Below, piece after piece: positions 5,149-12,492 of a DNA stretch of 64,000 nt; position 1 is the stretch's first letter, and every line of letters starts with the position of its first letter. The DNA comes from Actinomycetota bacterium (GTDB lineage: Bacteria > Actinomycetota > Thermoleophilia > Solirubrobacterales > Solirubrobacteraceae), in contig VAXW01000005.1 of NCBI GenBank assembly GCA_005884115.1, forward strand, positions 310,001 through 374,000. The letters run 5' to 3'. The notes under the pieces were generated by a model, which did not search any database, was not told the DNA's origin, and worked only from the letters and a program-made list of their open reading frames with translations. A program made the translations under genes and the position numbers.

Positions 5149-6171
5149 ATGGACAAGACTGAACAGAAGATCGTGCAGTACCTCCGCGAGGCGCATGCCA
5201 CGGAGCAGGCACTCGTCACAGTGCTGCAGTCGCAGATTGCGATGACCCCGGGCGGAAGCTACCGCGACGGCCTCGAATCTCACCTGCGCGAGACGCGGGA
5301 GCACGCAACTCGGGTGCAGCGCCGCCTTGACGAGCTCGGACAGGGCAGCAGCCCGATACAAGCCGGCGTTGGGCTCGTCCAGAGCGTCGTTGGGCAGGCA
5401 CTGGCCCTGGGGAAGGCGCCACTCGACCTCGTCCGCGGCACGGGCGGCGAGGAGAAAGTCCTCAAGAACGCCAAGGACGCGTGTGCAACCGAGGCCTTGG
5501 AGATCGCCACCTACACCGCGATCGAGCGTCTGGCGAGCTCTATGGGCGATAGGGCTACACAGGCTCTCGCCGACTCCATCCGGGCTGACGAGCAGAAGAT
5601 GCTCGACCGAATCTTGAGGGAGATCCCAAAGCTGACCGAGGCCGTGGTGCGCTCAGAGATCCGCGGGAACCCGTCATACGACATCAGCGAGACAGGTGCT
5701 GCGGACGCGGCCCGCTCGGCGTCTGAGAGCGTGAAGGGGGCTGCTCGTGACGCGACATCGAGTGCAAAACGCAACGCCCGCAAAGCACGCAAGGTACCCG
5801 GGGTCGCGCAGGCCGAGGGTCAGGTCAAGGGCGCGCTGGCCTCTGAAGGAGACCTCGCAATCTCTGGCTACGGGAAGCTCACCGCTGCGGAGATCACCGA
5901 AAAACTCGCGCATCTCTCGCAGGTCGACCTCGAGAAGGTCGACTCCTACGAGCGCAGGAACGAAAACCGCACGACCATCCTCAGCCGGATCACCAGCCTG
6001 CGCGGCGACGAGCCGTGGCCCGGATATGACGAGCTCAGCGTGGACGAGATCCGCGCCGTATTGGACGAGGGCGACGAGGACCGCGTCAAGCGCGCGCGCT
6101 CCTACGAGCGCTCCCACAAGAACCGAGCCGGTGTCATTGATGCCTCGGAGCGCGAGCTCGCTAGGGCATAG
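5149..6171 (+). CDS. ferritin-like (DUF892/YciF-type) protein with C-terminal tandem helical motif
   Basis: A 340-aa protein. Residues 1-170 form a four-helix bundle in the DUF892 style: acidic/His positions recur in EAHATEQAL, LRETREHA, ATEALEIATY and ADEQKMLDRI, as in ferritin-like di-iron proteins. Residues about 190-230 form an Ala/Lys/Ser-rich linker. Residues about 245-340 hold two copies of a motif with the pattern YxxLxxxEI...YERxxxNRxxxI (KLTAAEITEKL with YERRNENR, then ELSVDEIRAVL with YERSHKNR). DUF892 proteins are stress-induced, but their chemistry is unsettled. The tail is unusual and may mediate binding. Start chosen at the ATG after AAGCTGGAGG. Confidence 0.8.
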   Translation: MDKTEQKIVQYLREAHATEQALVTVLQSQIAMTPGGSYRDGLESHLRETREHATRVQRRLDELGQGSSPIQAGVGLVQSVVGQALALGKAPLDLVRGTGGEEKVLKNAKDACATEALEIATYTAIERLASSMGDRATQALADSIRADEQKMLDRILREIPKLTEAVVRSEIRGNPSYDISETGAADAARSASESVKGAARDATSSAKRNARKARKVPGVAQAEGQVKGALASEGDLAISGYGKLTAAEITEKLAHLSQVDLEKVDSYERRNENRTTILSRITSLRGDEPWPGYDELSVDEIRAVLDEGDEDRVKRARSYERSHKNRAGVIDASERELARA

Positions 6172-6426: not shown

Positions 6427-6888
6427 ATGACGCTGCGCATACAACACTCTCGGGGCGGGGTAGAACTCGACGTGCGCCGGATCCCGGTTCTCCTAGTGCT
6501 TGTGCCAGTCGTCGTCCTGCTCAGCGCGTGCGGTCAGGCTCACAAGCCTGGAGTACGCGCGGGCATAGTGGAAATCGCGTCGATCGCTGCGGAGAGTGCA
6601 CTGATGGCGGACGACCTGGCACGCGGTCGCAGCAAGATTACGTTCATTCGGGTCCACGGTGCGGAGCTGAGCGCCCAGGCACAGCATGAGGCCGAAAAGC
6701 TCAACGATGATCCCGTCGCGCCCAGCGTGAAGAGTCCGATCGAAACTGCGATCACACTTGCGTCGGACATTGGCGGCGCGATCGACGAGATGCGCGTCTC
6801 GCCACAGGATCGCCAGCAGGCAAGGGAAGATGAGGCAAAGCTGCACGATTGGGCGTTGAAGGCCAGGAAGTTGGCGGAAACGCTGTGA
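6427..6888 (+). CDS. putative lipoprotein
   Basis: A 153-aa protein with a lipobox. After a basic start, the hydrophobic run VLLVLVPVVVLLSAC ends at Cys35, the expected lipidation site, so the mature protein should sit on the outer face of the membrane. The mature part is mostly helical and polar. No family is recognised. Its TGA overlaps the GTG start of the NRAMP-related transporter (GTGA, 6885-6888), so the two are translationally coupled. It may act as an accessory or substrate-capture subunit for that transporter; this is inference from gene order. Confidence 0.7.
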   Translation: MTLRIQHSRGGVELDVRRIPVLLVLVPVVVLLSACGQAHKPGVRAGIVEIASIAAESALMADDLARGRSKITFIRVHGAELSAQAQHEAEKLNDDPVAPSVKSPIETAITLASDIGGAIDEMRVSPQDRQQAREDEAKLHDWALKARKLAETL

Positions 6889-8105
6889 AGAAGTTCTTCC
6901 AGATCGCGCTCGGCGTCATCGCCGCTATCGGCGGATTCGTCGATATCGGGGAGCTTGTGTTCAACACACAGGCGGGTGCTGACTTTCGCTACACGCTGCT
7001 GTGGGCGGTGCCGGTCGGCGTGATCGGGATAGTCGTGTTCGCGGAGATGACCGGCCGGATCGCCACCGTCTCAGGGCGCCCGATCTTCGACGTTGTGCGG
7101 ATGCGAATGGGACTCAACGTTGCGCTCGTGACGCTCGTGGCTTCACTTCTGATCAACCTGATAACACTGGCGGCGGAGGTCGGTGGCGCGGCGATCGTCC
7201 TGCAGCTTCTGTTCGATGTGAACGTGTCCACGCTGATTTTGCTCGCCGTCGTAGCTCTCGTCCTGATTGTTTACTTCGTGCCGTTTGGCGGCATCGAGCG
7301 AATCTTTGGCTATCTCGGCTGCGGCCTGCTCGTGTACGTCGCCGCCGCCATCCACCTGAAACCAGACTGGCATCAGTTAGCGAGCGGCTTGTTGCCGAGT
7401 TGGCACTCATCGGCGTTATACGCCTACTTCGTGGTCGGCGTAATCGGTGCCGCGCTCATCCCATATGAGGTCTACTTCTATTCCTCCGGTGCGATAGAGG
7501 ATCGCTGGAAGATCGGCGACCTCAATCTCAACCGCGCCAACGCCATACTGGGCTTCACGCTGGGCGGCATCCTGTCGATTGCCCTGATGGTCGTTGCTGG
7601 AGAGGTCTTTTTTGCCCCTCAGGTTCACCCCGGATATCTGGGAACGACCGCGCTGGGCGCCGAGCGAGCGTACGGCGAGGCTGGGCTCTTGCTTGCGCTG
7701 TTGGGGATGCTGTTTGCCGTCGGCGGAGCTGCAGTCGAGTGCGCGTTCTCTGGTGCCTACACGCTGGCGCAGTTCGCCGGGTGGGAGTGGGGCAAGTATC
7801 GCCGCCCGCGCGATGCGCCTCGCTTCACGCTTGCGTGGCTGATCTTCTTTGCGCTGGCGTTCGTGGTCGTCGAGACCGGCGTCGATCCCGTCCTGCTGAC
7901 CGAGTATGCCGTCATCCTGTCGGTCGTCGCGCTGCCGCTCACTTACCTACCCGCTTTGCTCGTGGCTCGCGACAAGACGTTCATGGGCGACCACGCCAAT
8001 GGCATCCTGGCCAACGCGGTCGGCTGGCTGTACTTCGTCATCATCCTGGTCGTCTCGGTCGCCGCGATTCCCCTGCTTCTGGTCACCGATGGAGGAGCGG
8101 TCTGA
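6885..8105 (+). CDS. NRAMP-family-related divalent cation transporter with altered metal site
   Basis: A 406-aa membrane protein with about 11 hydrophobic helices and NRAMP layout. Helix 1 carries VDIGELVF where classical NRAMPs have DPGN, so Asp20 is kept but the metal-binding Asn is replaced by Glu23. Helix 6 has ALIPYEVYFYSS where classical proteins have the MPH motif, so the selectivity Met is Ile192. Loss of these Asn and Met ligands is the hallmark of NRAMP-related Mg transporters rather than Mn/Fe importers. The GTG start at 6885 overlaps the lipoprotein stop; the longer open frame from 6849 is not needed. Two PRC-barrel genes follow with overlapping starts. Substrate could be Mg2+ or another divalent ion. 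Confidence 0.8.
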   Translation: MKKFFQIALGVIAAIGGFVDIGELVFNTQAGADFRYTLLWAVPVGVIGIVVFAEMTGRIATVSGRPIFDVVRMRMGLNVALVTLVASLLINLITLAAEVGGAAIVLQLLFDVNVSTLILLAVVALVLIVYFVPFGGIERIFGYLGCGLLVYVAAAIHLKPDWHQLASGLLPSWHSSALYAYFVVGVIGAALIPYEVYFYSSGAIEDRWKIGDLNLNRANAILGFTLGGILSIALMVVAGEVFFAPQVHPGYLGTTALGAERAYGEAGLLLALLGMLFAVGGAAVECAFSGAYTLAQFAGWEWGKYRRPRDAPRFTLAWLIFFALAFVVVETGVDPVLLTEYAVILSVVALPLTYLPALLVARDKTFMGDHANGILANAVGWLYFVIILVVSVAAIPLLLVTDGGAV

Positions 8106-8470
8106 TGACGCCCGACCACATGGACCTCGTTTACCGAGTCCTCGACGACCAACTTGTCGATGTCGATGGGCGTCGCTGCGGACGAGTCGATGACCTGGAG
8201 TTCGACGGTGGTCCCGGTGAGCAGCCGCGACTCAGCGCGATCCTCAGCGGATCGGGCATGTGGCATCGCCGGATGCCACGGGTGCTCCGGACGGCCGGCG
8301 CACGCATCTTCGGCACGGGCGTGCTGGGGGAGGATGTAATTAGGGTCCCCTGGGAGCAGGTCGGCGACATCACCAGCACCCTCCGCCTCAAGGCAAAAGC
8401 CACCGAGCTGGGCTTGGCGCAAGGCGACGAAGAGGCCGCTCGGTTCGTCCGAAAATTCCCCAAGTCATGA
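8105..8470 (+). CDS. PRC-barrel-like protein in transporter operon
   Basis: A 121-aa soluble protein. Residues 9-40 (VLDDQLVDVDGRRCGRVDDL) show the beta-barrel opening of PRC domains, a strand pair with Asp-Gly turns. A variable middle (MWHRRMPRVLRTAG) follows, then the closing IRVPWEQVGDITSTLRL. Its ATG shares a base with the transporter stop (TGATG, 8103-8107), and its own TGA overlaps the next ATG, so it belongs to one operon. PRC barrels occur in ribosome maturation factors and in regulatory domains of membrane proteins. Here a cytoplasmic partner of the transporter is the simplest inference. Confidence 0.7.
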   Translation: MTPDHMDLVYRVLDDQLVDVDGRRCGRVDDLEFDGGPGEQPRLSAILSGSGMWHRRMPRVLRTAGARIFGTGVLGEDVIRVPWEQVGDITSTLRLKAKATELGLAQGDEEAARFVRKFPKS

Positions 8471-8733
8471 TACGCGCCAGCGACTTGCTCGGCTGTGAGC
8501 TTCGCACCGAATCCGGTGAGCCGCTCGGCCACGTCCGCGACCTACGCGCCGAGCGTGCAGACGACCATTGGCGCTTGAGCGGACTTGTCCTCGGCCGTCG
8601 CGGGATATCTGCACGTCTGGTCGGCACCGAACCCGACACCATAATCGCCGGCGAGGTGATCGGATGGGAGGCCGTCAGCAGGTTAGAGGTCGGCTCGATC
8701 ATCGTCCGGGACACCCCCACTTCCGCGCGGTAA
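8467..8733 (+). CDS. PRC-barrel domain protein
   Basis: An 88-aa single-domain protein: MIRASDLLGCELRTESGE opens in classic PRC-barrel style and is followed by PLGHVRDLRAER, LVLGRRGISARL and a closing VIGWEAVSRLEVGSIIV. It is the last gene of the overlapping lipoprotein-transporter-PRC-PRC operon (ATGA overlap with the previous gene at 8467-8470). The two PRC proteins differ clearly in sequence, so they may form a hetero-complex. Role unknown. Confidence 0.78.
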   Translation: MIRASDLLGCELRTESGEPLGHVRDLRAERADDHWRLSGLVLGRRGISARLVGTEPDTIIAGEVIGWEAVSRLEVGSIIVRDTPTSAR

Positions 8734-9045
8734 CCTCGCGCGCCATGGCAAGGCGTTCTCCCCCGTCCGCGTGGCGGGGGCCCGATCGGGCTGCTTGGCG
8801 AACGCCGTTGCCGTGGCTCTCGCATCGCGGGAAAAGGAGCACGGCACCACAGGCTATGACCGGACGCTGCAGGGGCGCTTGAGGCCCTGCCGGCCCTGGG
8901 CGTGGCACTTGCCAAAAGACGCGCTCGCCGGTGGCCGCCGGCCCGGTCGGAGCAGGGTCGCTGGCTACCCCATTTCCTACCCCACGGATCACGCGAGTGT
9001 CGAAAACCTCAACGAACACGGGCGTCTTCTCGTGCGTGCGGCGTA
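8734..9045. other. intergenic stretch without a supported gene
   Basis: About 310 bp between the last PRC gene and the tRNA-Ser fragment. Open frames exist on both strands, but none has a ribosome binding site or recognisable protein sequence. This is the right-hand end of the candidate island. Confidence 0.5.
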
Positions 9046-9103
9046 CTCGAAAACCGTTTCGGGGGGTTTTCCTCCGACGAGGGTTCGAATCCCTCCCCCT
9101 CCG
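9046..9103 (+). repeat. duplicated tRNA-Ser 3' half (att-like site)
   Basis: This 58-bp segment repeats the tRNA-Ser gene from its anticodon loop (CTCGAAAACCGTTTCGG) through the T arm (GGGTTCGAATCCC) to the discriminator. Only the variable arm differs (GGGGTTTTCC here against GGCGTTAGC in the intact gene). No 5' half is present, so it is not a functional tRNA. Duplication of a tRNA 3' half starting at the anticodon loop is the usual footprint of tyrosine-integrase insertion. Confidence 0.8.
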
Positions 9104-9108
9104 TTTTG

Positions 9109-9765
9109 TGATGTGTCGGGACATCGGAGACAGATGTCTCGGGACATCGTAGACAGCTCAGCAGTGCTCGATCGGCTGGTAGTCGCGGCTGGGATCGAGC
9201 GGCAGCTCGCGGATCAGCTCGCCGTTTAGGTCGATCACGCGCACGTTGCGATCGGCGATCAGGAGCTTGACGGCGCGGCCGTTGTGGACTCGGCCGATAC
9301 CGATTTTGTAAAGACGGCTGTGGAAGCGCAGGCTGACCTTGCCGCCCTTGTCGACCCGGTCCTCGCGCACTCGGAAGTACGTGCTCGCCGCCGTGCCCGC
9401 CGGCCTCGCCTTCGCTCGCGCGGTGTAGGCCTGTAACGGAGTGCGCCCTCGCAGGGCCCTGTGTGGGCGGATGTGGTTGCAGTAGTGCAGGAAGCGATCC
9501 AGCTGCTCCTGAAGGGCCGTGAGCGTCTGTGCCGTTGCTTGGCGCTCCAGATGACATGAGCGTCTGGTGCAGACGCTCCACCTTCCCGAGCGTCTGCGGC
9601 TGATAGGGCCGCGAGTTCTTGAACTGCAAGCCGAGGCGCTCGAGCTCGTGTTCCAGGCGCACCTTGCCGCCGCGGTATGAGCCCACGAAAAAACACTGCC
9701 CCGTTGTCGCTCAAGAACGATTCCGGCAGGCCGTGCAGCTCGGCTGCCTCACTCTTCCGCACAAA
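9109..9765 (-). mobile_element. IS481-family transposase pseudogene with terminal repeats
   Basis: Two tandem terminal-type repeats (about 9109-9156, sharing ATGTCTCGGGACATCG) are followed on the minus strand by a broken DDE transposase ending at 9158. Recognisable blocks, split across at least two frames, are GLPESFLSDNGAVF (a catalytic Asp region), SRPYQPQTLGKVERLHQTL, YCNHIRPHRALRG, FRVREDRVDKGGKVSLRF and KLLIADRNVRVIDLNGEL. The N-terminal HTH half is missing. The C-terminal 70 residues remain in one frame (9158-9370). It is clearly inactive. It shares its end and orientation relative to the tRNA with the remnant at 2571. Confidence 0.85.

Positions 9766-10226: not shown

Positions 10227-12492
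<2,266 letters not shown>

Follow-up and report, generated by a model that had tools for sequence, protein, structure and literature searches.

Non-canonical NRAMP-related proteins have been described as a paraphyletic group with varied metal-site residues (PMC12873925). The NRAMP-related Mg transporters (NRMTs) carry the motif DxxG-TxxA/T and the plant aluminium transporter (NRAT) carries DxxN-AxxT; EleNRMT has lost the residues of the H+ path and is not proton-coupled (PMC8806188). In a clade B NRAMP, the Glu of transmembrane segment 3 (TM3) directly contacts Mn2+ (PMC12873925). Shin et al. described in 2014 an MgtE-like partner of NRMTs, for which they guessed at a cytoplasmic feedback (PMC4072509). 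The subject of this analysis is a block of four genes, encoding a lipoprotein, an NRAMP-related transporter, and two PRC-barrel proteins (PRC1 and PRC2), in a 64,000-nucleotide stretch of a Solirubrobacteraceae genome (GCA_005884115.1, contig VAXW01000005.1, positions 310,001 to 374,000 of the forward strand), hereafter the window. The block is conserved among relatives of the transporter in soil bacteria and is best classed as a variant of NRAMP-related transport with several components, outside both NRMT and canonical NRAMP (Slc11), because the defining sites and clades of both were tested and the block fits neither. We give about even odds (0.5) to the four genes encoding one transport system, probably an H+-uncoupled carrier for a hard cation, most likely Mg2+, with a split PRC regulatory module and an outer lipoprotein.

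Four overlapping genes

The four overlapping open reading frames that a first-pass annotation had proposed between positions 6427 and 8733 are present as described (Table 1), joined by GTGA at 6885, TGATG at 8103, and ATGA at 8467, and their assignment to one operon is supported. The overlaps are not due to chance, because relatives keep them at 81 of 86 lipoprotein-transporter junctions, 69 of 77 transporter-PRC1 junctions, and 72 of 73 PRC1-PRC2 junctions, counting only loci where the gene caller used here called both genes and taking starts as the caller chose them. The nonsynonymous rate (dN) was lower than the synonymous rate (dS) for all four genes in all 16 comparisons of the window with four relatives (L012 to L015), and all four look to be under purifying selection.

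The lipoprotein of the window has a signal peptide and the lipobox LSAC, with the Cys codon at 6529-6531; its start may be the GTG at 6472 rather than the ATG at 6427. A lipobox was found at 70 of the 95 loci scanned by a crude rule, several mycobacterial members being doubtful and some frames having been picked wrongly. Pfam assigned no family to the window protein and gave only six weak hits, each in a single member, among 56 members of the lipoprotein family. Mean column identity in this family is 23%, and only M1, C35, and L139 reach 90%.

PRC2 exceeded the cut-off of the Pfam PRC model (PF05239; 22.5 bits versus 21.2), and 25 of 37 members of its family matched this model at E 0.01. PRC1 scored 14.1 bits, below the same cut-off, and 5 of 38 members of its family matched at E 0.01. 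However, hhalign joined the PRC1 and PRC2 families with an E value of 6.4e-11 and a probability of 97%, and we call PRC1 a PRC-barrel protein on account of this profile comparison. The earlier assignment of two PRC-barrel proteins thus holds by Pfam for PRC2 and by comparison with PRC2 for PRC1.

Table 1. Positions of the four-gene block, its site residues, and other features in the window
Feature	Position	Strand	Remarks
Lipoprotein gene	6427..6888	+	153 amino acids (aa); open reading frame read from sequence
NRAMP-related transporter gene	6885..8105	+	406 aa; GTG start inside GTGA
TM1 site DIGE (canonical DPGN)	6942..6953	+	D20, E23
TM3 Glu98	7176..7178	+	Corresponds to the Glu kept in Slc11 and NRMT
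TM6 site IPYE (canonical MPHN)	7458..7469	+	I192, P193, Y194, E195
PRC1 gene	8105..8470	+	121 aa; PRC-barrel protein with C-terminal tail
PRC2 gene	8467..8733	+	88 aa; PRC-barrel protein
DUF892 (ferritin-like) protein gene	5149-6171		Just upstream of the block; Pfam
Frames resembling integrase-type transposase remains	9009-9762	minus	By eye
Collagen-like repeat protein gene	10227-12203		Pfam Collagen 1.2e-60; long open frames on both strands
tRNA gene	2478-2566

Transporter clade and ion site

The window transporter matched the Pfam Nramp family (PF01566) over residues 27 to 373 (2.6e-50; 171.9 bits versus a cut-off of 29.8), and one NCBIfam model also called it NRAMP, over cut-off. Its nearest solved structure by sequence is 7qia (8.4e-25), i.e., EleNRMT. 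The first-pass annotation had read this protein as non-canonical, which was borne out: with DIGE and A-x-x-I-P-Y-E it departs from the canonical Slc11 motif (DPGN; A/C-x-x-M-P-H), and the Asn and Met ligands are lost. NRMTs had been said to lose the same positions. The positions are indeed the same, but the residues differ, the NRMT motif (PMC8806188) being replaced in the clade studied here by a typical DxxD/E-AxxT followed by PYE, and in the window by DxxE-AxxI.

Site residues were counted in 97 non-proteobacterial members, comprising 96 of the 97 loci described below (one short protein was omitted) and a copy from a Streptomyces plasmid. The TM1 Asp (D20) is invariant (96 of 96 letters), and the TM1 Asn position (E23 in the window) is occupied by D in 87 members, E in 8, and S in 1, with Asn in none. 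The Ile at position 192 of the window, where the canonical TM6 Met would stand, is a rare state found once; the usual residue is Thr (85 of 97), followed by M, V, and S (3 each) and A (2). The first TM6 His is replaced by the Tyr of Y194 and followed by the Glu of E195 in all 97 members; the second TM6 His is replaced by F or Y and the TM3 Asp of the H+ path is replaced, again in 97 of 97. The TM3 Glu98 is E in all 97 and in 10 of 10 proteobacterial members; EleNRMT, ScaDMT, and the two further PF01566 proteins of the window genome also have E there. The glycines of the carrier core are conserved, as are its site positions. We infer that the carrier is not coupled to protons and that its site, with oxygen ligands only, would suit a hard cation, because the H+ path residues are lost as in EleNRMT, the site residues are altered, and the TM3 Glu has been retained.

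In each of two trees, built from 89 proteins, all 41 family members form one clade with full support (100/100 in the second). In the second tree, in which some long branches are flagged and 18 rows belong to no group, the 17 Slc11 rows form their own clade (100/100), as do the 13 NRMT rows (100/98), and the window transporter falls in neither. Mean identity of the transporter clade is 24% to NRMTs and 21% to Slc11.

Conservation of the block

The transporter has a sparse but wide distribution. It was found in 8 of 146 genomes at the family level (E <= 1e-30), in 23 of 399 at the class level, and in 13 of 396 at the phylum level (both E <= 1e-50), with the window genome included in each sample. 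Among 84,980 species genomes scanned, 536 candidate relatives turned up, and the best 80 of these, which were retained, comprised 79 from Actinomycetota and 1 from Chloroflexota, in genera such as Arthrobacter, Mycolicibacterium, Leifsonia, Kribbella, and Nonomuraea. Viral contigs searched with the window protein yielded no relative.

The order lipoprotein-transporter-PRC1-PRC2 was found in six of the first seven relatives, the seventh (L018) having only the lipoprotein and transporter genes. From 114 loci, 17 duplicates (the same contig taken twice, judged by contig name or length) were removed. All three partners lie within 4 kb on the same strand in 91 of the 97 remaining loci, a fraction biased towards presence because the partner profiles derive from neighbours selected in those same loci for their position and size. 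Two of the six incomplete loci, L147 and L057, are on contigs that end within 140 bases of the transporter. Three sets of results are free of this bias: the 10 proteobacterial loci, the control loci described in the next section, and genome-wide profile searches. The gene order is identical, where the annotation was read, on plasmids of Rhizobium, Mesorhizobium, and Caballeronia and on one from Streptomyces, and the actinobacterial profiles at E 0.01 found all three partners in 9 of 11 such loci, including 8 of the 10 proteobacterial ones. At L204 there was no PRC2 profile match, though its record annotates a PRC-barrel gene there, and at L208 there was no lipoprotein match.

In the genome-wide searches, the PRC1 profile matched 58 of 396 Actinomycetota genomes at E 1e-5. 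The 13 strongest hits (E <= 5.2e-21) are exactly the 13 transporter genomes, each hit adjoining the transporter, and the next hit is at 4.9e-11. The lipoprotein profile matched 36 of the 396 genomes at E 0.001, among them 12 of the 13 transporter genomes at 1.2e-17 or better (G625 was missed). The next lipoprotein hits, in G565 and G627, likewise adjoin transporter frames, of which one is shortened and the other truncated at the end of its contig; all remaining hits are at 3.2e-8 or weaker. The shortened transporter frame of G565 (L262) has 237 aa, with the lipoprotein match immediately upstream.

Wider neighbours are not conserved, the 138 neighbours lying 2 to 4 genes away having matches to 189 Pfam families, of which the commonest occurs in 4; the four genes are therefore the unit. 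Within this unit PRC1 and PRC2 are naturally fused into a single protein at L065, L066, L058, L103, L105, L123, L127, L128, L135, and L148. In our own reading, the fusion at L066 is in the order PRC2-PRC1, and L058 has the lipoprotein gene downstream of the PRC gene. This shuffling of gene order while gene content stays constant argues for a functional link between the genes. The partnership of transporter, lipoprotein, and PRC pair proposed in the first-pass annotation is well supported by the neighbourhood survey, which did not reveal homologues that widely lack these partners.

PRC modules beside NRMTs and on MgtE channels

Control loci were picked from PF01566 matches, not at random, and were typed by their TM6 letters; at ten of the NRMT-clade loci the available flank was only about 1.4 kb. 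Canonical and NRMT-like loci had been expected to lack PRC genes. Contrary to this expectation for the latter, proteins matching the PRC1 and PRC2 profiles adjoin the transporter at 12 of 12 NRMT-clade loci examined, which are 12 of the 15 PW-type loci overall. An adjacent PRC pair was also found at 3 of 10 PY-type NRAMP-related loci and at none of 4 other loci, and 15 of 15 canonical MntH loci had no PRC or lipoprotein partner match. These partners fall into two kinds, PRC-PRC proteins of about 200 aa and longer PRC-PRC-MgtE_N-CBS proteins, of about 430 aa upwards. One PRC partner adjoins a transporter that shares 91% identity with the part of EleNRMT present in the solved structure. A second PF01566 gene of the window genome, also NRAMP-related (L229, 5162-6568 on contig C2; the partner also in L002), has a PRC-MgtE_N-CBS partner. 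A canonical MntH is also encoded in this genome, on contig C7. At L268, a PRC-PRC-MgtE-like protein, an NRMT, and a PRC-PRC protein are encoded in a row.

The two PRC domains of the NRMT partners best match PRC2 and PRC1, in that order: by hhalign, the N-terminal PRC aligned to PRC2 with an E value of 1.1e-17 versus 2.1e-11 to PRC1, and the C-terminal PRC aligned to PRC1 with 7.3e-12 versus 6.2e-10 to PRC2. The 47 weaker rows of the PRC1 genome search fell by frame size into 24 of 600 to 700 aa, 17 of 410 to 500 aa, 4 of 200 to 250 aa, and 2 others. Ten proteins of the largest class were tested (L268, L269, and eight more in the range L271 to L278). MgtE_N and CBS were found in all ten and the MgtE transport domain over cut-off in nine, with L268 just below. 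The eight further proteins, drawn from the 24 frames of that size, all carry PRC, with a PRC1-type stretch at about residues 82 to 199 that follows an N-terminal Pfam PRC match. Two proteins of the 410- to 500-aa class have MgtE_N-CBS and PRC without the transport domain. The Pfam PRC model works close to its limit on these proteins: in three sets of partner proteins, it was over cut-off in 6 of 7, 5 of 8, and 8 of 10, and the assignment of the remainder rests on the PRC1 and PRC2 profiles; in the second set, the protein of L216 gave no Pfam PRC match at E 0.01.

Two known kinds of Mg2+ transporter, NRMT and MgtE, thus share their PRC pair with the clade of the window transporter. The first-pass annotation had held that PRC-barrel proteins have no described role with such transporters. 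This agrees with the open-licence literature, in which we found no PRC-barrel linked to NRAMP, MgtE, or a magnesium transporter (an earlier remark is possible), and the term PRC occurs 0 times in the main text of Shin et al. (PMC4072509). However, the gene set is less isolated than had been thought, because PRC pairs also accompany NRMTs and MgtE channels. What is new is that the pair is not peculiar to the four-gene operon and is common to NRMT, MgtE, and this clade, often with MgtE_N-CBS at NRMT loci, a more general finding than the earlier one. It suggests a role for PRC barrels in the control of magnesium transport.

Comparison with described systems

NRMTs (EleNRMT and CabNRMT) resemble the window transporter in belonging to PF01566, in keeping the TM1 Asp and TM3 Glu, in having lost the Asn, the Met, and the H+ path residues, and in being accompanied by PRC-containing proteins at every NRMT-clade locus examined. 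In contrast, they form a separate clade with a different motif, and the block described here has PRC as two separate genes without MgtE_N or CBS, plus an extra lipoprotein. The NRMT partner protein is likewise an adjacent cytosolic partner of an NRAMP-related carrier, and such partners begin with PRC barrels. However, the text cited describes only its MgtE-like part (PMC4072509), and the window partners have neither MgtE_N nor CBS. The MgtE channels with N-terminal PRC, found by the PRC1 profile, carry the same tandem PRC type, but there PRC is fused to MgtE_N-CBS-MgtE in a single protein with a different transport domain.

Canonical Slc11/NRAMP proteins (MntH and ScaDMT) belong to the same Pfam family and share D20 and E98 with the window transporter, in which, however, their Asn, Met, two His, and TM3 Asp are replaced; canonical loci also lack a PRC or lipoprotein match. 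The AxxT of NRAT is common to most members of the clade, but DxxN-AxxT is found neither in the window (DxxE-AxxI) nor in most other members (DxxD/E). The 'orphan' PF01566 outgroup of Cellier likewise lies outside Slc11 and NRMT and has a Tyr after the TM6 Pro (PMC10606218, PMC9606685). However, the T, V, and Y substitutions given for it in those texts match L169 and L170 (GTTVVPYN), which lie outside the transporter clade, a link that we draw here. For one wide clade, represented by the 536 candidate relatives, the block defines which genes belong together, sets its ion site apart, and names subunits that can be tested.

Proposed mechanism and alternatives

As far as sequence comparison can guide, the four products would act together as follows. 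A divalent hard cation, most likely Mg2+, would be bound between D20, E23, and E195 (TM1/TM6) and perhaps E98 (TM3), an acidic site that would stand in place of the Asn/Met transition-metal site. Mg2+ would be imported down the electrical gradient without proton coupling. PRC2 and PRC1 would represent the split form of the tandem PRC module that is found before MgtE_N-CBS, beside NRMTs or on MgtE. They may dock at the cytosolic face of the carrier and gate or control it, and the lipoprotein may bind the carrier from outside, as an outer subunit. A bolder version, which we hold only tentatively, would make this clade the first branch of SLC11/NRAMP with several subunits, its lipoprotein, carrier, and both PRC proteins assembling into an obligate membrane complex, and would see in tandem PRC a common cytosolic gate or Mg2+ sensor for MgtE, NRMT, and this clade.

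Several results weigh against the Mg2+ transport system. No known Mg or Mn riboswitch was found in the window or in 13 loci, and an IdeR-type box was found in 0 of 86 upstream stretches with up to 5 mismatches. The acid-rich site is not universal, because the proteobacterial members (L201 to L210) have E instead of the otherwise invariant D20 and L for E195 in 10 of 10, with S in 4, N in 4, E in 1, and Q in 1 at the TM1 Asn position and S or A at the TM6 Met position. Identity to NRMTs is low. The lipoprotein evolves fast and its family has no conserved metal ligand, so that a binding or stabilising role fits better than a metal-capture site for this putative subunit. Three loci with several kb of flank (L018, L092, and L152) keep the lipoprotein and lack PRC genes, and at L072 the PRC genes are present but no lipoprotein was matched. 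The preference of the C-terminal PRC of NRMT partners for PRC1 over PRC2 is only modest. The PRC partnership needs at least five gains or losses on the tree, three of them (by our own labels) losses inside the transporter clade, and would fit one origin as well as several. In the experiments of Shin et al., an NRMT was active in the absence of its MgtE-like partner, and rescue was no better once the partner had been added (PMC4072509).

The same multi-component carrier might instead transport Mn2+ or another transition or trivalent ion, with a PRC pair that regulates it and does not report Mg2+. Met is retained at the TM6 position in 3 of 97 members, AxxT is shared with the NRAT motif, EleNRMT also carries Mn2+ (PMC8806188), and an Acidobacterium NRMT relative rescued growth without added Mn (PMC4072509); the lack of a Mg riboswitch also speaks for such a substrate. 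We nevertheless consider it the less likely reading, since Met and Asn are absent from nearly all non-proteobacterial members and since MgtE channels and MgtE_N-CBS proteins carry the tandem PRC module as a fused part. An ordinary Mn/Fe importer of the NRAMP family, to which the Pfam and NCBIfam matches over cut-off would point, is very improbable: the transporter belongs to a separate clade and lacks the canonical ligands. That the lipoprotein and PRC genes are its chance neighbours is contradicted by their presence at 91 of 97 loci, in other phyla as well, against 0 of 15 canonical loci, and by the genome-wide PRC1 and lipoprotein profile searches.

The carrier-like protein could also be a transceptor, a sensor or stress regulator that transports little itself and signals outside cations to the cytosol by way of the PRC proteins. 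Acids in place of neutral ligands would suit this idea, as would the general-stress genes near some loci (ANTAR and STAS), the DUF892 gene in the window, and proteins near some loci that look CsbD-like or SigF-like. SigF-like promoters were found by a strict search in 4 of 87 cases, versus a shuffle mean of 0.0 and none on the reverse strand, and by a relaxed search in 7 of 87, versus a shuffle mean of 0.48 and 2 on the reverse strand; these counts are too few to carry weight. We regard a transceptor as rather improbable, because the protein conserves the glycines of the core and the site positions, and NRMT relatives do transport (PMC8806188). The general-stress clusters are suggestive, but neighbour families vary as widely as described above and the recurrent ones were picked post hoc without a control; a general-stress neighbourhood was therefore rejected. 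Apart from the DUF892 gene of the window, ferritin-like genes were also seen near the Rhizobium copies L202 and L209.

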